Of a DNA stretch of 64,000 bases, positions 15,609-54,095 are shown in pieces. How positions within the stretch are numbered: position 1 is the first letter of the stretch; each line of letters opens with the position of its first letter. The notes below the pieces were generated by a model, which saw only the letters and a list, made by a program, of their open reading frames with translations, did no database searches and was not told the origin of the DNA. The stretch lies in contig NZ_CP082285.1 of the NCBI RefSeq assembly GCF_019880225.1, positions 1 to 64,000 of the forward strand, read 5' to 3'. This DNA is from Halobaculum rubrum. GTDB lineage: Archaea; Halobacteriota; Halobacteria; Halobacteriales; Haloferacaceae. The position numbers were made by a program, and so were the translations under genes.

Positions 15609-16514
15609 TTAGAAGTTTTCCAGAGTCTGCTGGCGGCGTTGTGATCGGGACACATTCGTTATGATGACCTCAGCAACATCGCCACGTCCACTTGCATCTC
15701 GATTGATAAACCGAGGTGCTTCGACAAACTCCACTTCAAATCCATCGGCACTCTCATACAACTCACGTACCGGAGGTGAATTTGAAAGGACGACTGATAC
15801 CCCTCGTGAATCTAGTTCCACTGCGAGATCACGAAGCCGGCGCTGATCGTCTCTGTCGAATCCCTCTGCTTGGTACTGAGTGAAATCAGCAGTCTTTGAG
15901 ACCGGCTTGTACGGGGGATCAAAGTACACGAGATCACCACTCGATACTGCATTACTCACGTACTCGAAATCCTCATTGTAGATATCGACAGCCGAGAAGA
16001 CGGCACTCACCGACCGGATCTGGTCCTCACGGACAAAATCTGGGTCATGATGTTTCCCGACTGGGACATTGAATTCGCCGCTTTGGTTCTCACGGTACAG
16101 TCCGTTGTATCCGGTCTTATTGAGGAAAATAAACAAGCTCGCCGCCCGGATTTTCTCCTCGGTTGTAAGTGAATCCTGATTGTGTAACTCCCGGAATTCC
16201 TTACGACGAGCATAATAGTACTCCTCAGTCTCTTCGTCGTAGTATTCGTTGTCACTAGAGCCTTCGTTCTTGTAGAAATGTGTGCGATTTTCCTCAATCA
16301 GTCGTTCTGGATAGTCACGAACAATCTCGTATAGAGTGACCAGCTTGGTATTCAGGTCGTTGATCGATCCTGCAGTAGGTTCTAAATCAAGAAAGACTGC
16401 CGCACCGCCAATGAACGGCTCATGATATGCGTCCCACTGCTGTGGAAACCGTCCTTTGATCTCAGAGAGAAGTGGCCGCTTTCCGCCAGCCCACTTCAGG
16501 ATTGGCTCAGCCAT
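15609..16514 (-). CDS. dam: DNA adenine-N6 methyltransferase (Dam-like, D12 class)
   Basis: A 301-residue alpha-class methylase that transfers a methyl group from S-adenosylmethionine to adenine in a short target (GATC in the type members). Motif I-like KWAGGKRPLL starts at residue 7 (the AdoMet site), FIGGAAVF follows near 34, and the catalytic DPPY (YFDPPYKPVS) is near residue 199. Full length and intact. It stands alone at the left edge of the methylase/nuclease island and could protect host DNA or simply be an orphan methylase. Its target sequence cannot be read from the protein. Confidence 0.9.
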   Translation of the reverse strand: MAEPILKWAGGKRPLLSEIKGRFPQQWDAYHEPFIGGAAVFLDLEPTAGSINDLNTKLVTLYEIVRDYPERLIEENRTHFYKNEGSSDNEYYDEETEEYYYARRKEFRELHNQDSLTTEEKIRAASLFIFLNKTGYNGLYRENQSGEFNVPVGKHHDPDFVREDQIRSVSAVFSAVDIYNEDFEYVSNAVSSGDLVYFDPPYKPVSKTADFTQYQAEGFDRDDQRRLRDLAVELDSRGVSVVLSNSPPVRELYESADGFEVEFVEAPRFINRDASGRGDVAEVIITNVSRSQRRQQTLENF

Positions 16515-16664: not shown

Positions 16665-16871
16665 ATGACAGACTCACAGGAGGGGAGTGTTCACGGAATC
16701 TCCGAAGAACAGGCAATGGCAATTACAGAAGAATTGCTTGCCGATGGGACGGTGGAAATGGGAGAGGACACACCAGTAATCACACACAAACCGACGGGCT
16801 GGGAATTCGAGTCCACGATGAAATTGGCATACTTCCACCGTGGCTGGGAGCTCGGGCGTACAGACGATTAA
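16665..16871 (+). CDS. Small hypothetical protein in island
   Basis: This acidic protein of 68 residues (SEEQAMAITEELLADGTVEM, KPTGWEFESTMKLAYFHRGW) has no recognised domain. It is divergent from the Dam-like gene and convergent with the zinc-ribbon methyltransferase, whose stop lies 2 bp away. It could be a small regulator or accessory protein of the methylases; there is no direct evidence for that. Confidence 0.6.
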   Translation: MTDSQEGSVHGISEEQAMAITEELLADGTVEMGEDTPVITHKPTGWEFESTMKLAYFHRGWELGRTDD

Positions 16872-18479: not shown

Positions 18480-21407
18480 TCAATCAGCCCCCGACGGCGT
18501 CGGTGTGGAGTACTCAATCACGAACCGGTTCTGGTTATTGGATGGTGTATTTCGAATGAACTCATGATCACCCGAGAGAGATCGTTCAACGGTGTCCATC
18601 GAGTGTTTGGGGTGGTTCACTTCGAGCCCGAGATTACTCAGGATTGGGGGCGTTTTGTCGGTCCCAAACGCCTCGACCCACTCCCCGCTATCCAGATCAG
18701 CTACTAACTGCTGTATGGCTATTGTATCGGTGTAAACGTAGTGGCGGCCGTCCTCGTAGAGAAACAGTTCATCCGACAGGCCTGGAATGTTGTCTTGTTG
18801 AACGTCTTCAACCAATTCACACGGCTTGAGGAACGTGACGTCTGCTTTAATTCCAAATCCTGAACAGGGCCGCTGGTTCATCGCTTCATCAGCGTTGTTT
18901 GCATAGTCCAACAGTTCGCGTGCGGTCGTCTCTTCGTCAACGACAAAAACTAGATCTACGTGGCCATGGATGTTTTCTGCAATCGATTGATGTCCAAGCT
19001 CCTGACTGACAGCGATAACGGACTGGATGTCCAGTTTACTTGGGCTGTCGAAACCACGGATTGAGGCCAGTTCTTCGAGCAGTTTTCGGGAATACTTCAC
19101 TTGGCGGAGGCCACAGATGAGGTTTTCAATCGCATCTGTAGCATCATCCTCACGCCGCTCATAGTGCCGTTTGACATATTCTTGGACATCTGAATACGCG
19201 TCACAGTATTCCTGGTTGAGTTCAACACCAATCGCCCGGCGCTCCATCACCTCAGATTGAGCAACGACAACACCAGATCCTGCGAAAGGGTCTAGAACAA
19301 CGTCTTTACTATCTGTTGATAGATTTAAGATTCGCTGAATCAGTTGAGGTGGGAGTGCAGCTGGGTGGTCAATTGTCTCCTCATTCCCCGTGAACGACCC
19401 CCTCGTCGGTGATTGGAATTTCCAAATGTTTTCTGGCAGTTTCCCCAGCGGGTGATATCGTTCGGGGAAGTCCGCCCACCACTTCTTGTATTTTGCAGGA
19501 TCTGGCTGACGGATACTATCCATATCCAGCTTAAAGTCTGTGGTTTTACTGAAGCATAGGATGTACTCGAATACATTCCGTAGCCGCCCTTTCTTCGTAT
19601 AGGGAAGAGCATGATTTTTATCCCATACAATAATGTCTTGCAAATGCCAAGAATCTCCTTGGGTGACGGTCTCACCACAGTTTGCACAAGTTACGTTCCG
19701 ACCTGCAGGCTCATGAACACGTGAAAGAATGGAAGCGCCACAGCCGGGACACTCCAGATCGTTATCGATATTCTGGCAAATCCGAGCAATATCAAACGGC
19801 AGCTGTACGACCTCGTGATTTCGCCGGAAGGTGTTGACGACGACCCACAAGGAGCCATCGTTTTTCGTCATCGTATAGACATCCTTGAAAATATCCTGTA
19901 GCTGGGATAGATATTGGCTGTAGCTGCTCTGTTGGCCAACTTCGGCGGCATCTTCAGATCCATATTCCTTCATGTCAAAATACGGTGGCGAAGTAATCGT
20001 TGCATCGAGAAATCCCTCAGAAGAGTCAATATCTGTACTGGTTTTTTCACGAAGCTTTGGGAGGAATTCCTGCGTATCGCCATTGTGCAATCCGAATACA
20101 TCATCAAGAGAACCAATTTCCACCTCCCGAGAGATCTGTTTTGAATCGGTCTCGTCGATAGTTTGATCGGATTCATTACCCGAGGCTCCACCGCTGCTTA
20201 TCCGCTTTCTATAGTCTTTCCCCTCAGGGTGGTATTCAGACTGAGAGAGCTCCGACTGCATTTCCTCCCAAAGTGTGCTGTTCGTATCTAGCCGCGTTTT
20301 TTTGTTGTCCGTCGGGACTTCTCGGGTGTCACTAGTCGGTTGAATCTCCAACTCTCCGCCAAAGTAGTTGTATTGGTTATTTCGAGTTAGGTCAAAGAGG
20401 TCCTCGAAGACGGAAGTCATCAGAACACGTCCATTTGCGTAGATGTCTACTCCTTGCCGGCTTTGGTTTGGGCGGTATCGATATCTGAATCGGCCGCTCT
20501 GTGTGAGAACCTCAGGATACTCTTCTTCTGCCAAGGCGGTCATCGCATCAATATCCAATTTTCCACCCCGGTAGATTACATCGTACGTGACCCCAGTAGA
20601 CGTTTGTATCTCGAATTCGTGGGTCGTCAGTGATTCTTCGTCTTCATAGATTGGGGTAATAGCAGGGACGGTGAATGATCCCTGTTCACCTTCAAGAAAG
20701 TCATGATAGTGGATGGTGATCTGGGTATCTTCGTGAGCGTTCAGTAGCCTCCGGAATAGCACTCCAAGTCGTTCTCTGATGTATTGCGCCTTGATTGAGA
20801 GAGAATTAGCAGCCGGCCAAACGTCACTCTCAAATTGCGTTCTGGCGCACGAAACTTGGATCCGTGTCCCGTGATCACTGTATGCTACTGCTTCAGCGAG
20901 ATCTGGAATGCCCACTGTCCACTCATCTGGACCAGCATCACTGATCGGAAGGTCTCCTGTAATGGGTCCATTGACGTGTGTGAGCGGACCCTGTGAGGTC
21001 TGCGTGACTAGTTTGAACCAGTCTTTGTCGCTCTCAATACCGCGCTGTTTGAGCGATTGCTCGAACCAGGCGATACTGGCCTTGAGGCCCCACCCAACGT
21101 TATTTAAGATCCCATCTGAGACTTGTTTACTGCCAGTTCTGAAGACGTGGTTTCGAAGGTCATCACGCGAGATTCCAGGACCTGAATCTGCAATGTATGT
21201 TGTGACGGTATCTTCACCCCGGACAATAGAAATTGAAATATTGACCGGATTGTCTGGGTCATCGAAATATGACTCATCAGAAACCGTTGCGGCAACAGAA
21301 TTGTCGATGAGTTCCTGGAGGGCATCAAGATAGTTTTCATGTTGCTTGGCCATTCCAGGCGCCAGCGTCTGAAGTTCGACTTCTGATTTGCAAGTATCGC
21401 TACTCAT
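18480..21407 (-). CDS. GHKL ATPase fused to DNA methyltransferase
   Basis: This 975-residue fusion starts with a GHKL (Hsp90/MutL/MORC-like) ATPase: N box LQELIDNSVAA (30-40), G1 ADSGPGIS (73-80), G2 NVGWGLKAS (103-111), then a transducer-like beta region to about 400. The second half is a beta-class methyltransferase: TSPPY near 472, a zinc ribbon (CPGCGAS...CANCGET), DPFAGSG near 705, and a C-terminal domain shared with the next gene (PPILSNLGLEVNHP). ATP-driven clamping of the DNA around a methylation step is a reasonable idea. Such a fusion is unusual; I know no characterised protein of this layout. Confidence 0.88.
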   Translation of the reverse strand: MSSDTCKSEVELQTLAPGMAKQHENYLDALQELIDNSVAATVSDESYFDDPDNPVNISISIVRGEDTVTTYIADSGPGISRDDLRNHVFRTGSKQVSDGILNNVGWGLKASIAWFEQSLKQRGIESDKDWFKLVTQTSQGPLTHVNGPITGDLPISDAGPDEWTVGIPDLAEAVAYSDHGTRIQVSCARTQFESDVWPAANSLSIKAQYIRERLGVLFRRLLNAHEDTQITIHYHDFLEGEQGSFTVPAITPIYEDEESLTTHEFEIQTSTGVTYDVIYRGGKLDIDAMTALAEEEYPEVLTQSGRFRYRYRPNQSRQGVDIYANGRVLMTSVFEDLFDLTRNNQYNYFGGELEIQPTSDTREVPTDNKKTRLDTNSTLWEEMQSELSQSEYHPEGKDYRKRISSGGASGNESDQTIDETDSKQISREVEIGSLDDVFGLHNGDTQEFLPKLREKTSTDIDSSEGFLDATITSPPYFDMKEYGSEDAAEVGQQSSYSQYLSQLQDIFKDVYTMTKNDGSLWVVVNTFRRNHEVVQLPFDIARICQNIDNDLECPGCGASILSRVHEPAGRNVTCANCGETVTQGDSWHLQDIIVWDKNHALPYTKKGRLRNVFEYILCFSKTTDFKLDMDSIRQPDPAKYKKWWADFPERYHPLGKLPENIWKFQSPTRGSFTGNEETIDHPAALPPQLIQRILNLSTDSKDVVLDPFAGSGVVVAQSEVMERRAIGVELNQEYCDAYSDVQEYVKRHYERREDDATDAIENLICGLRQVKYSRKLLEELASIRGFDSPSKLDIQSVIAVSQELGHQSIAENIHGHVDLVFVVDEETTARELLDYANNADEAMNQRPCSGFGIKADVTFLKPCELVEDVQQDNIPGLSDELFLYEDGRHYVYTDTIAIQQLVADLDSGEWVEAFGTDKTPPILSNLGLEVNHPKHSMDTVERSLSGDHEFIRNTPSNNQNRFVIEYSTPTPSGAD

Positions 21408-21536
21408 TGGTGAAAGTCGCAGACAACCATCCTGTGATTACACTCGGGCTGTCGGCTATTGGAGTGTAGTAATTATTCCGCGGCATATCAATTGATCGAT
21501 GCCGCCTGCAATGCTCCAGTAGGATTTGTCATCGAA

Positions 21537-22526
21537 TCAGCCCATATCCCAGAGGTCTTTGAGGTATTCTGAGTTGTATTTCTGAGGACCATCTGTTTTG
21601 ACGTAGGTCTCGTGAGCCTCTAACAGGTCTAGAAATCCTGCCCGGGAGTTCTTATGATATCCATCGCGGAACGCTGGAATGGCTTGCTCATACACGAACT
21701 GCGCCATTTCATAATTGTAGTATAGATGTGGACCGATGTCTTCGATAAAAGCTTCAATCCCATCGAGAGTTGTAATTGAGATTCTAAGCTGGTCCTCTGA
21801 TTCGTGAATCCGGGGGGAGTAGGGTTTGTCTTCCCAGTAACTGAGTAGATGTGGTTTCACTAGGATTTCAGGGTGTGAAAGGGTAATTCCCGCTGCTGGT
21901 GACATCGAATAGCCAATATCCCATTCTGAATTTTCACTAGTATTGAACCGGATTCGTCCCTTCGCGTCAAACATGCCTGCCACATATTCTGTTGAAATCT
22001 GGTCAGGATATGTTGTTTCAGGGAAGTCCTTTTTGACAGGAGTCTCGTCTAATTGGAACTCTTTTTTAAAATATTCAAATGTGTATTTTTTATTCGTTAA
22101 TCTACTCCAATACGAATGTAATTCTGCCCACGTTTTGTAGAGTCGGAGGAATAATTCTCTGTCCGCACTGATGTTCTTCCCGCCGTACTCGTTGGCATAG
22201 AATGACAGAAACGACAGGCGTTCCGCAATTTGAATCCAATCACCACGCCCTAATTGACTCACCTCGATCAATGATTCATTGTTCCGTATTCTAACACGAG
22301 TTCCACTCGAGCGATTTTCGCTCGTTGTTCGTATCCCAGACTGCTCAAGAGAATCGACTATTATCCCTTCAATTAATTGGGAATCTCTGGTAGTGATGGT
22401 CAATGATGGGTCTAATCCGTACCCACCTGCGGTTTCTCTTGGTGCGAGCCGGGGATTACATAAGTAATCGATCAGCCCAATGAGATAGTCGTGAGGGACA
22501 TCCAATTGCTCATTCGAGGGAGTCAT
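21537..22526 (-). CDS. LAGLIDADG-type endonuclease, stand-alone
   Basis: This 329-residue protein holds two LAGLIDADG helices: YLIGLIDYL at residues 14-22 with the acidic residue at 20, and YVAGMFDAKGRI at 181-192 with the acidic residue at 187. Each is followed by beta-strand pairs (SLTITTRDS; GITLSHPEIL, DQLRISITTLDG) as in two-repeat homing enzymes. It is not inside an intron or intein; it is joined to the propeller gene by ATGA overlap and lies in a methylase operon. A domesticated restriction nuclease is the favoured reading; an inactive DNA-binding version is possible. Confidence 0.75.
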   Translation of the reverse strand: MTPSNEQLDVPHDYLIGLIDYLCNPRLAPRETAGGYGLDPSLTITTRDSQLIEGIIVDSLEQSGIRTTSENRSSGTRVRIRNNESLIEVSQLGRGDWIQIAERLSFLSFYANEYGGKNISADRELFLRLYKTWAELHSYWSRLTNKKYTFEYFKKEFQLDETPVKKDFPETTYPDQISTEYVAGMFDAKGRIRFNTSENSEWDIGYSMSPAAGITLSHPEILVKPHLLSYWEDKPYSPRIHESEDQLRISITTLDGIEAFIEDIGPHLYYNYEMAQFVYEQAIPAFRDGYHKNSRAGFLDLLEAHETYVKTDGPQKYNSEYLKDLWDMG

Positions 22527-23710
22527 TGGGCACCTGCTTCAGGGGTATTGAAGAATTGACCAGTCTCATTTGGCGGAGTGTGGTCAAGTCCTTTGTTTCT
22601 GTACTCATCCAACCGACTCCGATCAGCACTTGTTGTTAGGTTTACTCCGAAATGGTCTTCCAGCGCCTCAATCTGAAGATAGCAATCGAAGGCTTCGGAG
22701 TCCCGCTGAAGTCTCCGATACAGTCCTGCTTGGAATCGCAGCACTTGGGCAAGGCCTTCTTTCGCGTCATACCACGGGAGCGCAGAGCTATACGCCTCGG
22801 CACTCCGTTGTAGATGTCTCCATAGTTCAGAAGGCCACTCAGTGCCTCGACCGAGCACCTTACTAACTCGATAATATGCCTCTCCAAGCTTGAGAGCGTT
22901 CAATTTCGAATGTGCTGATTCAGCGTCGAACGTATCGCGATATGCCTCAAGTGCATCAATGACTTCCCGAAGCTTCTCAGCGTCGGCATCGACTAATCTT
23001 GCATCACCAATAGTATTCGCGATGATATTTTGTAACTGATCTATCTCAGTTTCTTGGTAGTCGTTGGCGAATTGCTCTATGATCGGGTGCCAGTCCAGAG
23101 ACTCATCAAGTTCAACAACATCGTAGTATTGGAGCTTCTCAAACGTGTCTGATTTTGAGTCAATCCCGCCGTCGACTGATATTGTATACAAACTTGGCTC
23201 AGCTGGATCCCTCCTGAACATCACACGATCGGAGCCTGCCACGGTAACTACAGATGGATATAACCGGTCGAAAACCTCGTATTCGTGCAGGGTCAGCACT
23301 TCACCAGAGTTGACATCGATGATTTGAGCGGGTGCGCTATGCGGACAAACAATGATTGTCTCACCATCTTCTGAAATATCTACAACAGGTGAACTCTCGT
23401 CGGTTTGTAACTCGAACACCTGTGTTCCATCTGCTTCGACGACATGGATATGGGCTCCGGTAGACTTGCCGTACTCAATCCAATCAGCGAATATGAACCG
23501 ACCAGAATCCGCGATTCCAACTGAACGAGGTTCAGAACACCGGTTATACCACGTGACAGAATCTTCCTGAAGTATGGCTACGTGGCCACGCTGATTTGAT
23601 TTGTCGTATCGATATGCAGCAGTAAATTCACCCGACGGAGAGTCCATTGCTTCCATTCGAATATCCTGGCTGTCAGTAGTAAGGGTAAGCCAGTAAGTTT
23701 CCGACTGCAT
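22523..23710 (-). CDS. Beta-propeller plus helical-repeat protein
   Basis: The first 200 residues of this 395-residue protein show repeated propeller-like strands (GEFTAAYRYDKSNQRGHVAI, VGIADSGRFIFADWIEYGKS, VVDISEDGETIIVCPHSAPA). Residues 215-350 are helical and TPR-like (ALKLGEAYYRVSKVLGRG, RFQAGLYRRLQRDSEAFDCY). This is a scaffold or sensor design, not an enzyme. It lies between the Dnd-associated-like gene (18 bp gap) and the LAGLIDADG gene (4 bp overlap), so it is an integral operon member. It could hold the ATPase and nuclease together or sense a phage product. Confidence 0.7.
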   Translation of the reverse strand: MQSETYWLTLTTDSQDIRMEAMDSPSGEFTAAYRYDKSNQRGHVAILQEDSVTWYNRCSEPRSVGIADSGRFIFADWIEYGKSTGAHIHVVEADGTQVFELQTDESSPVVDISEDGETIIVCPHSAPAQIIDVNSGEVLTLHEYEVFDRLYPSVVTVAGSDRVMFRRDPAEPSLYTISVDGGIDSKSDTFEKLQYYDVVELDESLDWHPIIEQFANDYQETEIDQLQNIIANTIGDARLVDADAEKLREVIDALEAYRDTFDAESAHSKLNALKLGEAYYRVSKVLGRGTEWPSELWRHLQRSAEAYSSALPWYDAKEGLAQVLRFQAGLYRRLQRDSEAFDCYLQIEALEDHFGVNLTTSADRSRLDEYRNKGLDHTPPNETGQFFNTPEAGAQ

Positions 23711-23728
23711 GTGGGTCTAACCTGGTGT

Positions 23729-24157
23729 TTAGGAGTCTTGTGCCAATTTAATCACGTCGGTAGAGAGCTCACTCAGGGCATCAGTCGGTCCCACGAGCTT
23801 TCCATGAAGCTCCTCCAACCCACTATTAGCATATTCTTGAGCGATTCGATAGACTTCTTTTTCATCACGGAGTACGTCGGTAGTTCGTGCATCACGTACT
23901 GCGACAGATTTGATGATCCACTTTTGATCGCTCTTCAACGAGCTGATATTGAAGAGCGCCTGACGGTCACCAGTTAGCGATGTTTTCCCGGTCTTCTTGC
24001 TGCCGTAAGCAACTGCGAACAGGAAGATTTCCATCCGCTGGGCTCCTTGAAATGGCGAGCCGTCGCTCTCTTGGAGCTCTTCGTACAGGTTGTCTTTAGA
24101 CCGTTCAATACTCACGTCCCGTGGCGCGTCGGTCGACTCGTACTCTGTGTTACTCAT
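23729..24157 (-). CDS. Dnd system-associated-like small protein
   Basis: Resemblance to the Dnd-associated small-protein family rests on the core FQGAQRMEIFLFAVAYGSKK, then IIKSVAVRDARTTDVLRDEK and VYRIAQEYANSGLEELHGKL, in 142 residues; I recall that family pattern and have not searched it. The gene overlaps the SMC ATPase by 8 bp. In phosphorothioation loci, members sit next to the DndD/DptFGH-type ATPases. Function is unknown; a regulator or adaptor of the ATPase is likely. No catalytic motif is visible. Confidence 0.6.
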   Translation of the reverse strand: MSNTEYESTDAPRDVSIERSKDNLYEELQESDGSPFQGAQRMEIFLFAVAYGSKKTGKTSLTGDRQALFNISSLKSDQKWIIKSVAVRDARTTDVLRDEKEVYRIAQEYANSGLEELHGKLVGPTDALSELSTDVIKLAQDS

Positions 24158-26120
24158 AGGGAACCACCTTGGTCACTTCATTGGCGTATTCAAGTCGGTA
24201 CTCGTTAGAGACACTGGGCTTAAGATTCGCTCGAACCTCATCGGTGTACTCCTCGTCGGTCATCAGGAACGTTATTTGGGAGTCATCAATGTACGATGGG
24301 AGATTGCGAGCGATTCGCTTCTTTGGCGTACTCGATATTCTTCCCAGCGGCGTGTCGATAATAATCGGGGCATTGAACCCACTAATCTGTGTGATTGCTG
24401 CGAGGAAGGAGAATGCCAACACTTGGCTCTCACCAGCAGATAACGACCCGATCTTGTTGTCGTTGCGCGGGCCTTCAACACGAACCTGATAATCGTCCCC
24501 GAGCTTGACTGTATATTCCTCTTCCTTCCAGATGATCTCGTTGAAGTATTCGTTCAGCTTCGCTTCAATCTCCGAGCGAACCGTTGAGAGGATATCCTCT
24601 TTAACTGAGACGAGCCGGTAACGAGATGTTTCGATAAATCGAATCCGCTTGAGGAGCTCAGCATTTTCCTCTTTCTGAGAGGCTGCTTCGTCGTATTCCT
24701 TCTTTTTCTCGTTTTTTAGTTCTTCAGCACTCTCGATTTCACTCTCCAAACGACCTTTCTTTTCGCGGAGTTTCGCAAGCTGATTGCTATACTCCTCTCG
24801 TTGGTTCTCTAATTCTTGAACATCGACATCATCCGGGATATCATAGGATTTCAGGTCCTCAGAGATTTCTTTGAGCTTCCTGTTGAGCCGCTTTTCTTCT
24901 TCCTCTGCTTCGACCAGGTCCTGACGAATCTGCTTAATTTCGTCAACTTCCTCAAAAGCATCATCAAGTAGGCCAGGGATGATCATCTTGCCCTCAAGAT
25001 TATCCTCGTCTACCTCCGACATCTCCGACTTGAGACTCCGGAGGTGTTCTGTGCTCTCCTCTGTAATTGGTTCCCCACAAATACACGTTCCAGTTTCAAT
25101 GAGTTCGTTGATGAACCAGTCTTGGATTTTGGGAGGAAGTTGGCCTTTCTCTGAGAGTTCGTCGAGTTTCTCTTTCGTATAAGTTAGTGATTTGTGAGCA
25201 TACACTGCCGGGCCTGTCTGGACAAGCTCTTGACTGAGCCGCTCCTGTAACTGCTCAATCTCATCTTGTTTCTGTGAGAGGGCTCGAGTGAGGTTCTGAC
25301 GGTCAACTTGTTTCTCCCGAACGTCGGGATCGCTGCTGTCACGCAGATCAGCATCGATTTTGTCTCGAAGATTCTGTGTATCTTCGATATTTTGTTTAGT
25401 GTTTTTGAGCTCCTTTCGCGTTGATTCGAGCTTTGAGAGAGCGTCTTCGTACTCCTGTCGCTTTTGTTCTGCTTCGCCGCCATCGTCGTCAATTTCGCGT
25501 CTTGTTTCAGCTTCTAGTTTCTCAAGATGGGTGATTGCCCTATCGAGCAATTCGATATGAGATACGTCCAGAAGACCACGGCGGACACGTTCTTGATATC
25601 CTTGTCCGAAGAAGTCGTCCAGCCGTTCGCCGTCAAATAAGAAGTACTCGTGTACGTGGGCGGGGAGAATCTGGTTGAGGCGAGTATTCGGTTGGTCGAC
25701 AGTTTTCCAATCGCGGCCCAGCTTCTGTTTTAGTTGAAGCTCACCCAAGGTGCTACTGTACTTTCCATCAGGGAGCTTGACTGTCTTGAATTCTCGTTTG
25801 AATATATACTCAGGGGTCCCTTTTCCGAGCCGTAATTCTACATAGCCGGTCGCAGTTTCATTTCCATTAATTTCGCTCAGTCGCTTCCGGTTGACATAGG
25901 GGTACGATTCCAAGCCTGCGTCCTCCTTATCCGAAAGGTGTGTCTCTTTTCCGTAGAGACACAGCGTGATTGCATTGAGGATATTAGATTTGCCGGCTCC
26001 GTTCTGGCCCTCAATCACATTGATATTCTTCGATCCAGAAGTCTGGAGGTCGATTTCGACTTCACCAGCATACTGGCGGTAGTCTTTGATCGTGAGGGAA
26101 AGTATCTCTAAGCGGCTCAT
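24150..26120 (-). CDS. DndD-like SMC/RecF-type ATPase
   Basis: An SMC-like ATPase of 656 residues. Walker A is GQNGAGKS at 38-45, FLFDGE at 160-165 is characteristic of DndD relatives, and two long coiled coils enclose a CICG zinc-hook-like turn near 345. The signature SLSAGESQ is near 557 and Walker B PIIIDTPLGRIS near 585. Length and layout fit DndD, which supplies ATPase activity in DNA phosphorothioation or restriction. However, no DndA, DndB, DndC or DndE gene is near. Here it is more likely a DNA sensor or loader for the nucleases. The family is firm at the SMC level and likely at the DndD level. Confidence 0.85.
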   Translation of the reverse strand: MSRLEILSLTIKDYRQYAGEVEIDLQTSGSKNINVIEGQNGAGKSNILNAITLCLYGKETHLSDKEDAGLESYPYVNRKRLSEINGNETATGYVELRLGKGTPEYIFKREFKTVKLPDGKYSSTLGELQLKQKLGRDWKTVDQPNTRLNQILPAHVHEYFLFDGERLDDFFGQGYQERVRRGLLDVSHIELLDRAITHLEKLEAETRREIDDDGGEAEQKRQEYEDALSKLESTRKELKNTKQNIEDTQNLRDKIDADLRDSSDPDVREKQVDRQNLTRALSQKQDEIEQLQERLSQELVQTGPAVYAHKSLTYTKEKLDELSEKGQLPPKIQDWFINELIETGTCICGEPITEESTEHLRSLKSEMSEVDEDNLEGKMIIPGLLDDAFEEVDEIKQIRQDLVEAEEEEKRLNRKLKEISEDLKSYDIPDDVDVQELENQREEYSNQLAKLREKKGRLESEIESAEELKNEKKKEYDEAASQKEENAELLKRIRFIETSRYRLVSVKEDILSTVRSEIEAKLNEYFNEIIWKEEEYTVKLGDDYQVRVEGPRNDNKIGSLSAGESQVLAFSFLAAITQISGFNAPIIIDTPLGRISSTPKKRIARNLPSYIDDSQITFLMTDEEYTDEVRANLKPSVSNEYRLEYANEVTKVVPYE

Positions 26121-26123
26121 TTA

Positions 26124-26318
26124 TTATGAGCTGTCCTCTTGCCAACTCTCAATGGTCGCATCGATGTATTCGTTGTAATCTGACTTGTAGTGGGGCTGGT
26201 CCATATCTAGATTCGAGCGCTCGAATCTCAGGATGTCGTCAATAAACTGACGGACGGACTCATCCTCGATGTCATCAACCTCATCCAGAATGAGCTCGTT
26301 CACGTCTTCCCGATCCAT
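26124..26318 (-). CDS. Small acidic protein of the island operon
   Basis: A 64-residue, strongly acidic helical protein (VNELILDEVDDIEDESVRQF, YNEYIDATIESWQEDSS) located 3 bp before the SMC ATPase start and 45 bp after the helicase stop. The tight spacing indicates co-translation with the ATPase. No domain is recognised. It could be an accessory subunit or an antitoxin-like inhibitor. Confidence 0.65.
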   Translation of the reverse strand: MDREDVNELILDEVDDIEDESVRQFIDDILRFERSNLDMDQPHYKSDYNEYIDATIESWQEDSS

Positions 26319-26363
26319 GCCACCAGCTACCGTTATGGACTACTTATGATTTTTGCATATAAT

Positions 26364-28415
26364 TCAGACAGATGGATCTTCATCTCCGTCGTCTGTCGAT
26401 ACTCGGTATTGAATCCGTATCTCACCGATTGCATTTCTTGCCTGAATTTCGTTCTTCGCATGGGCTGCGAATTCCTCGAATCGCTTGAGTTCCTTCCTGA
26501 GAATGTTCCGCTCTGCATCTGCAACCGTGTCAGATGGATCGAGTGTCGGGACGACGATAAAATCGAAGATAGTGGATTTCTCTTTTCCAGGGGATTTGCG
26601 GAGCACCCGTCCCCTCCGTTGGATGAATTCCATTGGGTTGCCCGTATTTGACATTAAGATGGCTTGCTTGGTTGCTTCAACGTCGACACCCTCATCGAGG
26701 CATTTCATGGCGACGAGGGCATCGTATTCTCCCTCTTTGAATCCTGAGAGAATTCGTTGACGCTCCTCGCTGTCTTCTCTATACGTGAACTTGTGTTGGA
26801 TGATCCCTTGCTCATTGAGGATATCCTGAACATGATCAATCTGGCTGGAATTCGTGTAGACCAAAAGATGGTCGATTGGGTCTAATCTATCAAGTACGGT
26901 GGACAACTGTGCATACTTGTTCTCAGCAGATTTGATGATGTTAGCTCGTTTTTGCGCTAAGCGCTCCACAACTTCATCATCAGCTTGGTCGTTGTGTGCA
27001 ATACGGGCTAATTTCCGAGAGAGTTTTTGATACTCACTGAATTCATCAGCAGTGAGTTCGACAGGGACCGGATGGTACTCATACGGTGTGAGATATTCCG
27101 GAATCGCATCCTCAAGTGTGTACTCGAATACAGTCCCACCAAAGTACTCTAGGAGGAACTCTGTCCCCTCCTCATCATAGTAGCGTTCTGGGGTCGCTGA
27201 CAGTCCAATTCGATACTCATACTCATCGACCAGCCCCTTTTGTTGATGATCCGATCCCAGATGATGCGCTTCATCGCCAATTAGCAGTGCGTTTTCAGAG
27301 AAGTTCTGAATCTGGTCAATGAAAAACTCATGACACAGTGTGGTGTGTGTTGTGAGTACGACCGCCTGGTCTAGGATGTCAATCTCAAGATTTTGCAGAG
27401 TTCTCGATAGATCACTTTTCCAGTCTGGATTATCTGTTCCATAGGCATACACTGGCGCCTCCAGTTGGAAGGCATCCATCTCAGACTCCCACTGAGGGGC
27501 TAAGTGAGTGAATGGAACTGCGATTACAACAAGACTAGGCCCCGAATCCTGGTTAGTTATCTCCTCAGCAGCCGCCAGTGCTGTAAATGTCTTCCCGGTT
27601 CCAGTTGCCATTTCGAATAGTCCCTTGCCTCCATTCGCGTGCCATTCATCCACTGCTTGGCGCTGATACGGCCGAAGGAGCGAAGCTCCTCCCTTGGACC
27701 CCCCAGTCGGGTCATCATATGGACGATAGTCATCATCTCGGAGCTGCGCGATGTCGTTCGCGACACTGTCGGGAATTGTGTACACCTCAACATCAGGGAC
27801 TGCTCCCTCCCACAGTTTGTCAAATCGCCGTTCTTGGTGTGAAACGGCTTCTGCATCTCGTTCGCCTAACCAACTACAGTTGATTGAGTACGCTTCATAA
27901 TTGCTGAGAGCGTGCTGGCTGTCATTCTGAGAGCCATGAAACGCGACTTTGTTCCCTGCTTCATCCCGCAGGATCCCAAACTTGTCATGGAAATCCCCAC
28001 TCAGATCAACCTTAGGAACTGCAAATCTGATGTCAAGGATCCCATCAGCGATCATCCAGGCGATGGTATTGCGGGTATTGTATTCGAGATCGAAGCGAAG
28101 ATTGGAAATTTCATCTTCAAGAGCCTCTCTGAGTACTTCATCCTGCTTTGCTTCAGAGCCTTTCTGCAAGGCTTCCCAGTCGTCTTCACCGATCATTGGA
28201 CTGGTAATCCACTTGGCCGTCCCGCCATTTTCTGCTAAAGCAGCCATTCCTCTCGCCGCTGATCGCATCCACGAACTCGAGAAGTACCCAACACCGCGTT
28301 TGTATTTCGTTGCACGGGACAACAACGGCTCATAGAACTCAGAGACAAAATCGACCTCAGAAGTGTCAATAACGGGTGGGAACTCTAATTGGTCGAACAA
28401 CTGGCTGTCAACCAT
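26364..28415 (-). CDS. PLD nuclease fused to SF2 helicase
   Basis: A restriction-type protein of 683 residues. The N-terminal phospholipase-D-like domain has the HxK half-site FHDKFGILRDEAG with H143 and K145 and the GSQN segment at 161-164. The SF2 helicase follows: GTGKT at 272-276, DEAH at 381-384, a SATPER motif III-like segment, and the C-terminal QRRGRVLR arginine-finger motif near 610. PLD plus ResIII-type helicase is the layout of restriction subunits in phosphorothioation and DISARM-like systems. It is the first gene of the minus-strand operon; the 148-bp gap to the divergent HNH gene holds the promoters. Confidence 0.88.
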   Translation of the reverse strand: MVDSQLFDQLEFPPVIDTSEVDFVSEFYEPLLSRATKYKRGVGYFSSSWMRSAARGMAALAENGGTAKWITSPMIGEDDWEALQKGSEAKQDEVLREALEDEISNLRFDLEYNTRNTIAWMIADGILDIRFAVPKVDLSGDFHDKFGILRDEAGNKVAFHGSQNDSQHALSNYEAYSINCSWLGERDAEAVSHQERRFDKLWEGAVPDVEVYTIPDSVANDIAQLRDDDYRPYDDPTGGSKGGASLLRPYQRQAVDEWHANGGKGLFEMATGTGKTFTALAAAEEITNQDSGPSLVVIAVPFTHLAPQWESEMDAFQLEAPVYAYGTDNPDWKSDLSRTLQNLEIDILDQAVVLTTHTTLCHEFFIDQIQNFSENALLIGDEAHHLGSDHQQKGLVDEYEYRIGLSATPERYYDEEGTEFLLEYFGGTVFEYTLEDAIPEYLTPYEYHPVPVELTADEFSEYQKLSRKLARIAHNDQADDEVVERLAQKRANIIKSAENKYAQLSTVLDRLDPIDHLLVYTNSSQIDHVQDILNEQGIIQHKFTYREDSEERQRILSGFKEGEYDALVAMKCLDEGVDVEATKQAILMSNTGNPMEFIQRRGRVLRKSPGKEKSTIFDFIVVPTLDPSDTVADAERNILRKELKRFEEFAAHAKNEIQARNAIGEIRIQYRVSTDDGDEDPSV

Positions 28416-28563
28416 CGTACCCGTTCATGCTCCGTTCACTGTCTTAACTGTACGGTGATTTGTACGGCTGATTTCTCAATATGCGAACTGCAGCAATTAC
28501 CCCAAGCTGACCCATGGAAGTCGTCGAGTGCTGCCAGTGAGACAAACAGTTATACATTGAGAA

Positions 28564-31143
28564 GTGATTCCCACCCTCGTGGCAACGCTTCGAAATAAGA
28601 CTACTAGCTCTGGTGTGATTGTTCGCTGGGTTCCTCACCCAACCCATAGCCGGCCAAGCACCTATCAAGTTCGTCGTCGAGCCGTTAATTTCCTCGCGGA
28701 AATTGGCTATGCTGTTCCATATGAAGGCGATGAAGTCGAAATTCCGTGGGACGTTTGTCGGCCATTGCGCATCCTTGGTGACCTCCATTTCAAATCAGAA
28801 ACGAAGGGCCACCAGGACATCGGTCAAATCCAGAAAGTCTCAGAAACGTACGGCCAGTCGCTGTCAAATGAACAGCAGTCAAAACTCCGGTCTTATATTG
28901 AGACGCATGAGGCGTTTCAAGATCAACAACAGGAGTTGGAAGGAGAGCTGGATCATCTCCCGAGATTAAAAGAACGCCACCGGCCTGGTGGTGAAGAACC
29001 AGAGTCAACATCCGCTCGTCTTACCTCGTTTATAAAGGCAGCTCGCGGAGACTTGCTGGTTGGCAAAGCTAAAGGTCAGTCAAATTCAGGAAATACACAC
29101 TTCAAGGCCTCTAACGGCACTGAATTGTCTATTGGGCCAGTCCGCCAACGCAAAATTCCCGAGCGTGTATTGGTGTGGCAGCTGTCCGGCGACCGGGGAA
29201 TTTGTCTTCACGAGCAAGCATGGACGGCTAATTATATTGACTACTTCGAGCCCGGCGAACTCAGTCCAAATGGGACCCGAGTGGTGACATCGGAGTTCCA
29301 GCTAAATGAACTCGCTGAGTATCTCCAAGCACTCACACCACACTCAGACCAGTTACCGCCAGAGATACGCCAAGGCCCGAAAGTTATTGCTGCCAATTCG
29401 ATTACTGAGACCTTGGCAATTGGATGGATTGACCAGCATTGTGTGTGGGTCAAGTCCCCCTGTACGCTCCAAGACAACGTTACAGTGGAAGTTATTGGAG
29501 CATCCGAGGCTGGAATTCATGCTCGGAGCGCTACCAGTGACACTCTAGAACAGGAATACACCCTCGGGGATGCGCTAGAACCAACTATTGTTTCCAGAGA
29601 GGAATCTACCACATGGGGACTCTATGAGGAGACTCTTGTCAAAATTCCTGCAGAGGTGCCAGAGTGGGTAACCACTCCAACTGTCGGTATTTCTGAGTTC
29701 AACGATAGGTACATTCAGGCGTCAGTCGATGATCTATCAGACCAGCGAAAGCCCTCTCCCGGTTCTGAAGTTGAGATTAACGATGGTGAGCTTGTCAATT
29801 ATTCTGGCATACCGGTTGATACTGGAACAGAGTCTCCCAAAGTTTGGCAATATACCGCTGAGGTTACTGAGGTTTCACACGGTCAAGTCATCACATCGAT
29901 TGTGCCGCGTGCTGAGGGGCTCGGACTCAATACCGGCGACGAGATTGTAGTAGATACTGACGTAGTCAATGATGGGTCATTATGGGGGGCATTAGAGGAT
30001 ATCCCTGTTACTGTTGAGGCGGATGAAACCCTTGTTGCAGGGGCTGTAAGAGCAACTGTTACCGAAGTATCTCAATCGCATATTCATGCGTCTTTTAATT
30101 CGTATGTGACTGAGACGCTGACCGAAGACTCACCATGGACTGAGGCTATGACTGAAGGGCTGGAGCAGCTCTCTACTGGCGCATACGATGCTGCGTTAGA
30201 AGCCTTCAAAATAGCGGAAAACAGCGTTACCCCGAGTGGTGAGGTCTGGAAAGCAGAAGCCAAGCTAAATCAAGCAATCACGAGAGCAGAAAGAGCCAGA
30301 TCTGCCGGGCAGGTTGCAGAGGCATGTGACCAGTTTGAGCGCCTTACAAGAGATCTCAGTTCGGATCAACAGCGTTCGTCGGTCTGGGGACGAGTAGAAA
30401 TCGAACGTACTGCATATCTCTCATTTATCCGCGCCTGTGAAGCGAAGCCACCTCGGGATTGGTCACTGTCACGGAACGACTACCTGAGCGCGAGTGTCGC
30501 TGCAAAAGAGCATCTGAAAGCTGCAGGTACTGCATATCAAGAACTCGATTTTTCGACCGATAGCCAGGCCCACTCTCATGTGCACCCTGTCGCCCTGTCC
30601 GGTGCAGCAACTATCGTAGAAGAACTACGCGGTGCATCGGATGAGATCGTGATGGCTACCGAGACGCTCCCTCAGAGGTGGTGTCCCATCCTTCACGCTC
30701 CCCCAGAGACGATATTGGCGACAACCCACCCGGATGTCGTTCCATTCCATTCACACCGCGAGCCCAGTGAAAGGGTTTCGCGCCTTCGTACTGAAGCAAC
30801 CTCGGTGGGCGGGGAAAGTGAACTGGTAGAATCAGGAGCTAAGCTATTAACCTATGCAAATACGCAAGCAATCGCTTCGTACGTCCATGCGCGTTCGGAA
30901 GGCGTCTGTGAAGCGTGCGGAAATGATGCGGCGTTCGAAGCAATCGATGGAACGCCACATCTTGAACTTCACCACGTTGACGAACTCACTCGATCGGGTC
31001 CATTGACGCCAGCTCGTGTCGTGGCATTATGCCCGACGTGCCACGCACGGATCCACTATGGAGCTGATGGAGAGGCAGTGAATGAGGCAGTACGTTCGAA
31101 ATTAACGGCCGGGCTCGGTGAGTTAGGAGCAGAGCGTTCCTGA
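28564..31143 (+). CDS. HNH endonuclease with long multi-domain N-terminus
   Basis: This 859-residue protein ends in a McrA-type HNH nuclease: CEACGN near residue 782, LELHHVDEL near 803, CPTCHARIH near 822, a zinc-stabilised beta-beta-alpha fold. The N-terminus is a mixed domain with a helical stretch near 95-130. The middle (about 415-530) has repeated TRAM/OB-like barrels (YTAEVTEVSHGQVITSIVPR and VRATVTEVSQSHIHASFNSY), then helical repeats (580-680). It is divergent from the methylase/SMC operon. It could recognise modified or unmodified DNA with its barrels. The start (GTG at 28564 or GTG at 28579) is uncertain. Confidence 0.82.
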   Translation: MIPTLVATLRNKTTSSGVIVRWVPHPTHSRPSTYQVRRRAVNFLAEIGYAVPYEGDEVEIPWDVCRPLRILGDLHFKSETKGHQDIGQIQKVSETYGQSLSNEQQSKLRSYIETHEAFQDQQQELEGELDHLPRLKERHRPGGEEPESTSARLTSFIKAARGDLLVGKAKGQSNSGNTHFKASNGTELSIGPVRQRKIPERVLVWQLSGDRGICLHEQAWTANYIDYFEPGELSPNGTRVVTSEFQLNELAEYLQALTPHSDQLPPEIRQGPKVIAANSITETLAIGWIDQHCVWVKSPCTLQDNVTVEVIGASEAGIHARSATSDTLEQEYTLGDALEPTIVSREESTTWGLYEETLVKIPAEVPEWVTTPTVGISEFNDRYIQASVDDLSDQRKPSPGSEVEINDGELVNYSGIPVDTGTESPKVWQYTAEVTEVSHGQVITSIVPRAEGLGLNTGDEIVVDTDVVNDGSLWGALEDIPVTVEADETLVAGAVRATVTEVSQSHIHASFNSYVTETLTEDSPWTEAMTEGLEQLSTGAYDAALEAFKIAENSVTPSGEVWKAEAKLNQAITRAERARSAGQVAEACDQFERLTRDLSSDQQRSSVWGRVEIERTAYLSFIRACEAKPPRDWSLSRNDYLSASVAAKEHLKAAGTAYQELDFSTDSQAHSHVHPVALSGAATIVEELRGASDEIVMATETLPQRWCPILHAPPETILATTHPDVVPFHSHREPSERVSRLRTEATSVGGESELVESGAKLLTYANTQAIASYVHARSEGVCEACGNDAAFEAIDGTPHLELHHVDELTRSGPLTPARVVALCPTCHARIHYGADGEAVNEAVRSKLTAGLGELGAERS

Positions 31144-31278
31144 TTCTTCAGTTATCCCAGTAGACGGAGCGACAACAGAGTACTCATTTGATGTGGTCGG
31201 CAACGCCCATGCTGTCAACTGATTCTTCGACGGTCGGATCAGCAACTCCAGATTTCGAGCCCGTCCGGTTCAGGGACG

Positions 31279-31840
31279 TTACTCGGCAGAGTCCGCTTCG
31301 CCACCACGGCGGCGATGGAATGCAATTGCAACGAGACTGACGATGGCGATACCGGTGATGAACTTTGACCGTGACATAATCTTGATGAGCTGTCTGGAGG
31401 TCCTCAACGACCGCAGGTGAAGCATGCTGGAGCCCGACGCGAAGAGCCAGCCGAACAATCTCTGAACGATCGTACTTCTCGTCGACGTCGCGGTTGAGAG
31501 CCTTGCGAAGATCATCCCCAACCTGCTTCGACCGCTCAGGATTCTCCATAAGCGTGGTCAGTAACGCAGCAGCCGACTGATCGCGGAGTGCGATCGTCTT
31601 GCGTTTTCCGCCATTCTCGATGGAATCAAGCGCAGCAACGATGTCGTCGCCAGAAGGGTCGACGAAACACTCCGACAGCTGCTGGAACTCGTCGCCAGTG
31701 TTTATCAGCGTCGGCAAGTTCAGTAGGGACGAGAGCCGCTCCATCTTCCCTAGGAACTCGTCGGTGAACTCCTCAATGACTCGTGGATATCGTTGAACTG
31801 TCAGGGACGATCGTCTCGTAGGTGGACTTGTTGACCTTGG
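31279..31840 (-). pseudogene. Membrane-anchored protein gene, broken
   Basis: A good coding stretch (VIEEFTDEFLGKMERLSSLL, DPSGDDIVAALDSIENGGKR, YDRSEIVRLALRVGLQHASP) lacks a start at its 5' end, where the plausible N-terminus (VSKVNKSTYETIVPDSSTIS) is in another frame. Near 31370 the frame changes again to SKFITGIAIVSLVAIAFHRR, a C-terminal membrane segment, ending at 31279. In the unshifted frame the rest is Arg/Ser/Pro noise. It lies at the right border of the island, so damage by recombination is plausible. The membrane end could alternatively be a separate 32-residue gene. Confidence 0.5.
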
Positions 31841-31872
31841 AAACAGGTTTACTGACGCCCCCAAACACAGAC

Positions 31873-34080
31873 TTACCCAAACTCGCCCAGCGACGGCTCC
31901 ACAACGCCCGACACCGCCCGCTGAATCCGCTCGCGATCCCACCCGAGCGGCGACACCACACTCTCGGCAGCCCGAATCGCCTCGCGCCGATACCACTCGA
32001 CATCATACCGCCCCAACGACTCAAACCCCAACCGTACCCGCCCCAACCCCGTCGCCTCATCATCCACCACCAGATACTCGACGCGCTGCCCGGGTTCGAG
32101 CGCACAGTCCTTCCACTTCGCACGCTTCAACGCCGCCACCGTCACCGTCTCGTAGCGATACTGCTCAGCGCGCTTCGACACGCGCTGTGTCACCAGTAAC
32201 TCGATCGGGTCCACCTCGCCCTCTTCCAACCGCCTGAGCCACCGCCGCAGCTCCCCGACGACGGCCTCCACGTCGTGGGTCCGGTCTAACGTTTGGATCA
32301 ACGCCGCCTGCAGCCGCACAATCCACGCCGGCGTGTCGTCCTGGCGGCACTCGATCCCCCGGGTCTTCACTGCCTCACCCACACCCTCGTCAGGCAACTC
32401 CACTCCACGTCGCCGGCCGAAATACCGCGTCAGCGCCCCACCATCACTACCGCGGCGCGGACAGAAGGCGACCCACTCGAAGGCGCCCTCGTACTCCAAT
32501 TCGATGCCCACCTCCGCACTCACTTCCCGAGCAATCACATCCAACTCCCGCCGCTCTCCATCCTTCACATCTGGCGCGGGCGTCACCCAGATCGAATCGA
32601 CGATCCCGTGGAGCACACGCCACCCGCCGGCCTCGAGCGCGGCCTTCGCATCGAGCAGAATCTCCCGGGCAAACGCGTTGATTGCTTCGTGGCACTCGAT
32701 GCGGCCGTACTTCGCGTTCGAGAAGCCCTGGTAGCCGAAACACGACACCAAAATCCACTTGATCGCCGCCGAACGCGATTCCAACGCCGCGATCTCTTCG
32801 GGATCGTCCGACTCACGAATTCGCTGTTTGATCGCATCCCGGCCGTCGATCAACGGACCAAGCACGGCGGGAAGGTACCCGTCGCGTTCACAGATCGAAT
32901 ATCCCACTTTTGGAACTCGTGGGGTATCACAGCAGCCACACCGCACCGTCTCGGGTGAGATGTTGTATTCACGGATGATGTTCGGATACAGCGAGGAGAA
33001 GTCGAGCTCGTGGACGTCCTCATGCACCCCCACTTCGGGCGCTAATGTCGTTCCGCCGCGGTCGGCGGTATCGAGTGTCGCCGCCGAGCGGAAGAACTCC
33101 GGGCGCCACGCCTGCCACGGCACCAACACGCCCCGCGAACGCGCCTCCCGGATCTGCATCGCGGTCAACACTCGCCCGATCGACGCCCAGCCGAGCTCCT
33201 CCAACGGCAGCCCAGCCCGCGCAACCAGATCGAGACAGCCCTCGAGGCCTGCCTCGTGCACAAAGAACGAGTTCGAGCGGTCGAGCAGCACTCTCCCCGG
33301 CACCGAATATCGCGCCGGCGAGTGACCGACGTTCCCGTAGCTCGTGTACGTCGAGGCCGACGCCAACTGTGTATAGCCCGGCTCTCGCCCAAGCTCGAAC
33401 GGCCGCAGGCCATACTCCGCCGCTGCCTCGAACAACAGTGGGACGACCTCCGCGGTATCGACGACCAGCACGTCCGGGTCGACGCTCGCGACGCACTCGC
33501 CCACGGCCTCAACCACCTCTCGCGGCGTCGCACCAACGCGCTCACCGTCAACGGTGAGCTTGGGCAGGGCCTCTACCCCGGACTCGTGGGTCGGGAACCC
33601 AAGCTCGAGCGTCCGAAGCTCCCGCACATCCGTATCGGGCGCCGGATCTGTCCCGGTTTCAAGCGTATACCGGAACTGCCGCGTGAGATCGACATTGTAG
33701 CAGGTGTACGCATCGGCGCCCCCGAACTGCTGGACGCGGCGCGCGACCGAGCGGACGTCGTCGATCTCGCGACACTCGATCTTGAGGACCGGCCGGGCGT
33801 CAGCGCGGAACGTCTGGCGCCACACGTCCACTGAGAGCGACTCGACGGCCGCCTGCCCCCTGAGGAACGAGCGCAACTCCTGAAGCGCCTCAGTGAGCGC
33901 TCCACGCGCCGGCAACTGTACTCGCGGCGTCTGGCCACCATGCTCACCGTACAACTCCGAAACAGGCGCTCCGACGTACATCGTGGGTCGGTAGTCGTCG
34001 ACGCGGGTGCGTTCGATACCGTCGGGCGTGAGGCGCCATTCGACGACCGTGGAGCCGTCGTAGTCGATCGCGAGTACCAT
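31873..34080 (-). CDS. polB: Family B DNA polymerase, divergent plasmid type
   Basis: A family B polymerase of 735 residues. Motif A DFSSLYPNIIREYNIS is intact near residue 360, and motif B (IKWILVSCFGYQGFSNAKYG) spans 440-459. Motif C reads HGIVDSIWV near 491, so the first Asp of the usual DTD is replaced and only the second remains. The exonuclease region lacks the DIE-type motif I, so proofreading is doubtful. A four-cysteine segment (CGCCDTP) follows motif A. A specialised repair or bypass polymerase is likely. An upstream motif is shared with the RecA-like gene at 38.5 kb. Confidence 0.9.
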   Translation of the reverse strand: MVLAIDYDGSTVVEWRLTPDGIERTRVDDYRPTMYVGAPVSELYGEHGGQTPRVQLPARGALTEALQELRSFLRGQAAVESLSVDVWRQTFRADARPVLKIECREIDDVRSVARRVQQFGGADAYTCYNVDLTRQFRYTLETGTDPAPDTDVRELRTLELGFPTHESGVEALPKLTVDGERVGATPREVVEAVGECVASVDPDVLVVDTAEVVPLLFEAAAEYGLRPFELGREPGYTQLASASTYTSYGNVGHSPARYSVPGRVLLDRSNSFFVHEAGLEGCLDLVARAGLPLEELGWASIGRVLTAMQIREARSRGVLVPWQAWRPEFFRSAATLDTADRGGTTLAPEVGVHEDVHELDFSSLYPNIIREYNISPETVRCGCCDTPRVPKVGYSICERDGYLPAVLGPLIDGRDAIKQRIRESDDPEEIAALESRSAAIKWILVSCFGYQGFSNAKYGRIECHEAINAFAREILLDAKAALEAGGWRVLHGIVDSIWVTPAPDVKDGERRELDVIAREVSAEVGIELEYEGAFEWVAFCPRRGSDGGALTRYFGRRRGVELPDEGVGEAVKTRGIECRQDDTPAWIVRLQAALIQTLDRTHDVEAVVGELRRWLRRLEEGEVDPIELLVTQRVSKRAEQYRYETVTVAALKRAKWKDCALEPGQRVEYLVVDDEATGLGRVRLGFESLGRYDVEWYRREAIRAAESVVSPLGWDRERIQRAVSGVVEPSLGEFG

Positions 34081-34374: not shown

Positions 34375-34716
34375 TCACGAAGAAATGTAGCCGACCGTTT
34401 GCGTTTCCACGTCCGCAATGCGTTCGTCGACAAGCGAGGTCAGATGATATTCAACGTCTGCAGAGCTGTTGAGCGTCGCCAGCGACCACGGGAGGACGTG
34501 ACTTCGGTTTCCAAGCGGTTCGCCCGCGTAGTCGTCATCGTGGAGCGTGAGCGATTCCTCGTGATAGGTTTTGGAGGAAATCAAGACTGTGATGAGCTGG
34601 ACGCCGTGGGTAGCAAACTGCGGAGTCCCCAAGATGAGCATTGGGCGGCCCTTCTCGGAGAGTGGGTCAGTCCCCCAGATGATGTCGCCGCGTTCGAGGT
34701 CATCGAACGCGGTCAC
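34375..34716 (-). CDS. MazF/PemK-like toxin
   Basis: The start of this 113-residue protein, FDDLERGDIIWGTDPLSEKG, then RPMLILGTPQ and ITVLISSKT, follows the MazF/PemK/Kid pattern: RGDI, a strand with RP.LI, and an interface strand. These proteins are sequence-specific endoribonucleases. The ATG overlaps the stop of the winged-helix gene before it (ATGA), as in toxin-antitoxin pairs. The antitoxin is not of the MazE fold but of the wHTH type. Activity is inferred. Confidence 0.75.
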   Translation of the reverse strand: MTAFDDLERGDIIWGTDPLSEKGRPMLILGTPQFATHGVQLITVLISSKTYHEESLTLHDDDYAGEPLGNRSHVLPWSLATLNSSADVEYHLTSLVDERIADVETQTVGYISS

Positions 34717-35072: not shown

Positions 35073-35196
35073 GTGCGAGTGTTGGTGCTGTTTGAACATA
35101 GCTGTTTGGACTGTTGGATAGCTGGCTCTGGTGCATCTATGAACTTCAACAGCGTCGAGTATCCGGATTTTGAAGCGCCGTAGATACTATTGGTCA

Positions 35197-51557: not shown

Positions 51558-51634
51558 GTCGAGAGCGGCCCGCCGCAGATCCCGACGTGGAGCGAACGTT
51601 TACTACCCGATACGCGGATCCCCCATCACGATAG

Positions 51635-53881: not shown

Positions 53882-54095
53882 ACTGAGTTATATTCTCTCG
53901 GTCGTCCATGCGGCTGTCGATGAGTACCCGATGTCGACGGACGTAGACGACCCCCGTGCTGACCGCTCGAGTGTCGACTGATCCGGATGGCCCGTCAGAT
54001 TTATAACCTGCTCGTGACTCTACAGAGGTAGGAAACGCATAGAAAATATTATTTTGCGAATTGCACGGCGACTGCCCACCCCCAGCTCACCCCCC

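Follow-up and report, generated by a model that had tools for sequence, protein, structure and literature searches.

The locus described here probably encodes a virus-exclusion cassette, PbeABCD, whose self mark is base methylation and not phosphorothioation. It lies in the window that was analysed, the first 64 kb of the 93.7-kb second contig of a haloarchaeal genome; this contig appears plasmid-like, because ParA- and Orc1/Cdc6-like genes, recognized by eye, sit at its start. The locus comprises the following genes:

26364..28415, minus strand: PbeA, an HKD (PLD-like) domain plus SF2 helicase, 683 aa
26124..26318, minus strand: PbeB, an acidic protein, 64 aa, 34% D+E
24150..26120, minus strand: PbeC, a DndD-like ABC ATPase with a CxC hook, 656 aa
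23729..24157, minus strand: PbeD, the partner of PbeC, 142 aa
22523..23710, minus strand: gene E, a WD40-like half-propeller plus TPR-like helices, 395 aa
21537..22526, minus strand: gene D, a tandem LAGLIDADG-fold protein lacking the catalytic acids, 329 aa
18480..21407, minus strand: gene C, a GHKL ATPase (residues 1-~400) fused to a TSPPY-type N4/N6 DNA methyltransferase, 975 aa
16874..18403 (ORF open to 18517), minus strand: gene B, a second TSPPY-type methyltransferase
16665..16871, plus strand: sm68, a conserved 68-aa protein between B and Dam, on the opposite strand
15609..16514, minus strand: gene A, a Dam-type adenine methyltransferase, probably for GATC
28564-31143, plus strand: a divergent protein with a Pfam HNH domain, 859 aa

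The minus-strand genes are arranged in the transcription order PbeA, PbeB, PbeC, PbeD, E, D, C, B and Dam. The intergenic gaps range from -8 to +45 bp within PbeA-D and measure 18 bp between PbeD and E, and genes D and E share a 4-bp ATGA overlap; because of this tight packing, the stretch from PbeA through gene D is read as one operon. Gene C begins 129 bp after gene D. A sigma-70 promoter scan of the locus, which applies a bacterial-type model to an archaeal host, gave counts at chance. All open reading frames of the original prediction exist at their given places and in their given order. Its gene list holds as far as it went, but Dam and sm68 of the same cassette lie outside its range, and gene B, correctly recognized as a methyltransferase, very probably starts at 18403 rather than 18517, since its homologues align from residue ~39-45.

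By sequence, the four core genes correspond to the known and named Pbe effector cassette PbeABCD. PbeA matches the PADLOC PbeA model with an E-value of 8.7e-229, compared to 2.6e-12 for the far weaker match to PLD_Helicase, and scores 470.7 bits against NCBIfam TIGR04095 (dnd_restrict_1), under the cut-off of 600. It possesses the Pfam domains ResIII and Helicase_C, an XPB-like helicase core, and the motifs HxK...D and GSxND, Walker A, DEAH and QRRGR. PbeC matches the PADLOC PbeC model (E 7.6e-231), Pfam AAA_23 and, under the cut-off, the NCBIfam DndD model, and displays Walker A, a CIC hook at residue 346, a SAGE signature and Walker B; a CxC hook is the hallmark of the CxC-ATPase group according to PMC10853773. 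Homologues of PbeB fill the same slot between PbeA and PbeC in 12 other surveyed loci, and a counterpart of PbeD stands at the same position in 19 loci. PbeD itself matches TIGR04062 (dnd_assoc_4; E 1.3e-11) with 44.9 bits against a cut-off of 74.25. PMC10853773 calls this type of partner DndE-like, with two RHH domains; PbeD gave no match to two archaeal DndE proteins in hhalign, where the alignments are shallow, and none in the PDB. The order A-B-C-D and the sizes of PbeB and PbeD (64 and 142 aa) fit the PbeABCD cassette, which in Haloterrigena jeotgali has a 66-aa PbeB and a 152-aa PbeD (PMC6459918). Domains, composition and PADLOC thus confirm the PLD-SF2 helicase, the acidic microprotein and the DndD-like ATPase of the original prediction, and its Dnd-associated-like 142-aa protein is supported by TIGR04062 at a score under the model cut-off. 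What had been taken for a new Dnd-like SMC/PLD-helicase module is, by its PADLOC PbeA and PbeC matches, the already-named Pbe cassette.

Profile searches found no DndC in the whole source genome. Among the 391 genomes of the class, DndC is present in 18 and a PbeC-type ATPase in 61, a count that includes DndD, which the PbeC model also picks up. As a Dnd-related module stands beside methyltransferases and DndC is absent, methylation instead of sulphur transfer, as originally proposed, is the best reading. A search for one named system across all genes returned only PbeA, PbeC and generic methyltransferases from PADLOC.

The fusion protein encoded by gene C contains the Pfam domains HATPase_c_3 and N6_N4_Mtase, with the GHKL N-box, G1 and G2 motifs ELIDN, DSGPG and GWGLK, followed by the methyltransferase motifs TSPPY and DPFAGSG. 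The GHKL core residues and the cysteines of its zinc ribbon (CxxC-x17-CxxC) are invariant in 8 homologues; a PDB search with the GHKL domain gave chance matches only. Gene B (N6_N4_Mtase, E 1e-39 in Pfam) is a paralogue of the C-terminal methyltransferase half of gene C, at 35% identity. In both, TSPPY precedes DPFAGxG, which fits a permuted N4 methylase in a locus without phosphorothioation genes, and the TSPPY motif presumably points to N4-cytosine methylation. The m4C and m6A enzymes can be very alike (PMC10609329). The Dam protein scores 265 bits against TIGR00571, above the cut-off, and shows homology to DpnII and EcoDam, including the LKW and GLYR..FNVP segments; on account of this resemblance its target is likely GATC, which is also the phosphorothioate site of haloarchaeal Dnd (PMC6459918). 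Dam appears to be an optional part of the cassette and may be a passenger, because chromosomal paralogues are widespread (one in the source genome and in every fusion genome of genus g2) and Dam is absent from two fusion loci; the paralogues likewise weaken Dam as a diagnostic part of the system. Homologues of sm68 comprise a cluster from 7 loci plus one in Halosimplex pelagicum.

Of the 391 class genomes, 8 encode the complete fusion, among them the source genome; three more loci are in Halosimplex pelagicum, a Haloquadratum MAG and a Halococcus dombrowskii plasmid. In all 11 loci the fusion has methyltransferase B as its neighbour and both PbeA and PbeC no more than about 10 kb away. Together the loci span at least three haloarchaeal families, with 6 of the 11 coming from one genus; Dam and sm68 are both present in 8 of the 11. 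In the plasmid collection, a single record encodes the complete fusion; the viral contig collection contains no fusion copy, just a methyltransferase fragment. The fusion and B, usually with Dam and sm68, therefore make up a discrete cassette, accompanied by Pbe in every case, and the recurrence of the gene order in other families indicates that the arrangement is not due to chance. Asked whether orthologues occur independently of one another, the genes answer differently: the fusion does not (11/11 with Pbe), the HNH gene does, and distant relatives of gene B also exist without Pbe.

Comparison of fusion loci showed that the cassette is exchanged independently of the Pbe subtype. Between G147 and Halorubrum xinjiangense (G103), C, B and Dam share 90%, 89% and 82% identity, compared to 25% for both PbeC and PbeD, and DNA similarity is confined to one 5.9-kb block of C, B, sm68 and Dam, with nothing else in 20 kb. 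Similarly, C of G206 is 86% identical to that of G204 at a PbeC identity of 22%. In G206 and H. aidingense (G209), whose cassettes share about 80% DNA identity, homologous flanks on both sides enclose Pbe blocks of different, unrelated subtypes (PbeC 22%), which looks like an allelic swap. The reverse is seen between Haloquadratum and Halococcus, where PbeC is 81% identical and B only 50%. These reciprocal contrasts define methyltransferases and effector as linked yet interchangeable modules. In G204, an 84-aa ORF upstream of PbeA (L035:939-1193) matches the N-terminal 46 residues of the fusion at 76% identity; this apparent truncated duplicate of the start of gene C may mark recombination during cassette exchange.

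Other methyltransferases also accompany Pbe. Among 43 Pbe loci that lack DndC, at least 24 carry one of three kinds, a lower bound because the search of the other 19 was less than exhaustive: 8 have the fusion cassette and 2 unfused B relatives, 10 another TSPPY enzyme and 4 an Eco57I-type enzyme. Four of the 10 loci with another TSPPY enzyme also encode a separate GHKL ATPase. In G351, Pbe is flanked by a GHKL gene and a methyltransferase gene that are not fused, and either one matches parts of C at about 39% identity. In published work, 155 of 320 solitary PbeAC pairs lie near methyltransferase genes (PMC6459918), and methylase-linked CxC-DndE systems are reported in PMC10853773. A second large haloarchaeal Pbe group (L047-L063) has a short PbeA without PLD, a different PbeD and no DndC nearby, often alongside large SF2 helicases and DpnI_C or HNH-repeat proteins.

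Genes E and D form a recurrent Pbe extension. The AlphaFold model of E (pLDDT 75) has, by Foldseek, a WD40-like N-terminal half followed by TPR-like helices, which supports the earlier propeller reading of this 395-aa protein. Its full-length relatives adjoin PbeD in G351, G103, G014, Haloquadratum and Halococcus; the order PbeD, E, D is kept in Haloquadratum and Halococcus, and in H. xinjiangense, G351 and G014 both genes again neighbour Pbe, D being inverted or set apart. The LAGLIDADG reading of gene D is borne out by the motifs LIGLIDYL and VAGMFDAK, one in each half, by the alpha-beta-beta repeat order of a low-confidence AlphaFold model (pLDDT 43, used for secondary-structure order only), and by a weak PDB match to a LAGLIDADG enzyme. 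Position 8 of the motif, where the catalytic acid would be expected, holds no acid in either repeat of the gene D product or of 5 relatives, nor in the single motif recognized in a sixth relative; with both acids gone, the protein is probably DNA-binding. An HNH-associated-repeat protein fills the E/D slot in G372, G204, G209 and Halosimplex, and we infer that this slot holds a sequence-reading factor. Arrays of HNH_repeat (homing endonuclease associated repeat) also lie in Pbe neighbourhoods at L033:6397-7950, L037:13841-18976, L047:4011-7205 and L056:938-3757, and the repeat is also found fused to a helicase; these are candidate modular DNA-binding repeats.

The divergent HNH gene, which the original prediction had included, is not conserved with the other genes and was rejected as a member, having no relative in the fusion loci except a 99-residue match in L105. 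The C-terminal 90 residues of its product match type IV methyl-directed restriction models, and the protein might act on its own as a modification-dependent nuclease next to the methylating cassette. Several other genes in the window are of note. A 735-aa family B DNA polymerase overlaps a 270-aa ORF with a B12-dependent ribonucleotide-reductase-like stretch (31184-34080, minus strand), possibly a mobile-element remnant, and a 113-aa PemK/MazF-like protein, recognized by eye with no Pfam match, lies beside a 128-aa helix-turn-helix-like protein (34375-35099, minus strand), a possible toxin-antitoxin pair. A DUF6036 nucleotidyltransferase and an HTH-like partner stand in AbiEii/AbiEi-like order (2844-4630, minus strand). 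A plus-strand row at 50400-61710, encoding an SF1 (UPF1-like) helicase, a TerF-like vWA protein, an MBL-fold protein, a PspA-like 224-aa coiled-coil protein (by eye) and an AAA (Vps4-like) ATPase, may represent a distinct island for conflict or membrane remodelling.

On the preferred reading, B and C would methylate host sites, probably at N4 of cytosine and perhaps as a pair serving the two strands of an asymmetric site, and Dam would probably add m6A at GATC. The PbeC-PbeD complex would scan DNA, and PbeA, a helicase with an HKD domain, would block or cut unmarked incoming DNA. The GHKL clamp could couple the methyltransferase to the scanning complex via an ATP-driven change, and gene D with E, or the HNH-repeat protein elsewhere, might add sequence-specific binding. 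PbeABCD together with DndCDEA excludes the virus SNJ1, and loss of the Dnd mark abolishes defence and leaves the host unharmed (PMC6459918); by the same token, cells from which the methyltransferases are deleted should survive but lose defence. Against this reading, no DNA cleavage by PbeABCD was seen in PMC6459918, and PbeA of G147 lacks the PLD part.

A variant that overlaps the preferred reading, and that we hold only tentatively, makes the GHKL-methyltransferase the real sensor and Pbe a generic effector: the fusion would scan for unmethylated sites as BrxX does in BREX, and where the mark is missing the GHKL clamp would recruit or activate any Pbe. It is favoured by the 90%-identical cassette beside 25%-identical PbeC and by 81%-identical Pbe beside 50%-identical B, contrasts not easily explained if Pbe alone read a fixed mark; indeed, one cassette beside effectors only 25% alike suggests that Pbe itself does not read one. 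However, Xiong et al. found that a catalytically dead DndA, which should keep assembly, lost defence (PMC6459918), which points to a requirement for the mark and not for contact with the Dnd proteins, and this result speaks against direct GHKL-to-Pbe contact.

That Pbe and the methyltransferases are instead separate defences in one island, the latter being orphan or regulatory enzymes or an R-M remnant, is unlikely, and this judgement takes in the forms in which a solitary Pbe, without Dnd, is inactive or uses another mark. It is true that defence genes gather in islands, that orphan GATC Dam enzymes persist in Halorubraceae (PMC10609329), with extra copies in the g2 fusion genomes, and that the strain tested in PMC6459918 showed no Pbe activity when Dnd was absent; however, the association in every fusion locus across at least three families, the persistence of the cassette by Pbe even after replacement of the Pbe subtype, and the recurrence of GHKL/methyltransferase pairs beside other Pbe cassettes argue against it. 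A DISARM-like or type I/III-like R-M system is very improbable, and DISARM or BREX membership was rejected, for despite the PLD, SF2 helicase and methyltransferase in common with DISARM and the XPB-like helicase core, PbeA and PbeC models far outscore PLD_Helicase and R-M models, no DrmA/DrmB or HsdS-type subunits were found in the locus, the sole DUF1998 (DrmB) copy of the genome lies in a chromosomal 807-aa protein, and a profile search found no PglZ.

The closest known system is DndCDEA-PbeABCD of Haloterrigena jeotgali (PMC6459918), also haloarchaeal, which shares the order and domains of PbeABCD, a modification module adjoining Pbe and, maybe, GATC as a common site (phosphorothioate there, a Dam-type enzyme here). 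It differs in its DndC sulphur transfer, in place of which the present locus has B and the GHKL-methyltransferase, with the additional E and D. The CxC-ABC-ATPase/DndE systems with cytosine C5 or permuted N4 methylases, described in PMC10853773 and in a 2020 paper cited there, share the CxC ATPase, perhaps the DndE-like partner, an HKD-SF2 helicase, a small protein and a TSPPY-type methylase; the present locus differs by the GHKL fusion, the pair of paralogous methylases with Dam, the dead LAGLIDADG protein and the propeller, none of which is mentioned in the text searched. In the available part of PMC2292703, MORC/paraMORC GHKL ATPases of R-M operons likewise accompany SF2 helicase, methylase and occasional HKD nuclease genes, but GHKL and methylase are separate there, whereas here they form one polypeptide, accompanied by a Pbe ATPase cassette. 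DISARM and BREX resemble the locus in PLD/helicase/methylase content and mark-based discrimination, and differ in their DrmB or PglZ.

Coupling of Pbe (CxC-ATPase) to methylases is thus not new as a concept, because it was noted in 2019 (PMC6459918) and 2024 (PMC10853773), and the claim of a new system does not stand, four of the genes being Pbe and the pairing already published. New here are the discrete fusion cassette, its effector swapping and E/D as a recurrent Pbe extension; a search of the open-access literature turned up neither the GHKL fusion nor the make-up of the cassette, the reciprocal swaps or the E/D extension.

That Pbe runs on methylation instead of phosphorothioation has been a standing suggestion since 2019, and this locus family makes it directly testable, with natural strain pairs that have the same methyltransferase cassette and Pbe effectors only about 25% alike. 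The family also offers candidate new subunits, namely E, the dead LAGLIDADG protein D, the HNH-repeat proteins and sm68, in addition to the GHKL-methyltransferase fusion. The pairing of mark and effector looks interchangeable. More speculatively, and with some doubt on our part, Pbe might be a universal plug-in effector for which exchangeable modification cassettes supply the discrimination, the fusion being an ATP-dependent sensor that reports missing methylation to widely differing Pbe complexes; if true, this would be a further mode of coupling mark and effector, besides self-contained R-M enzymes and BREX/Dnd complexes.
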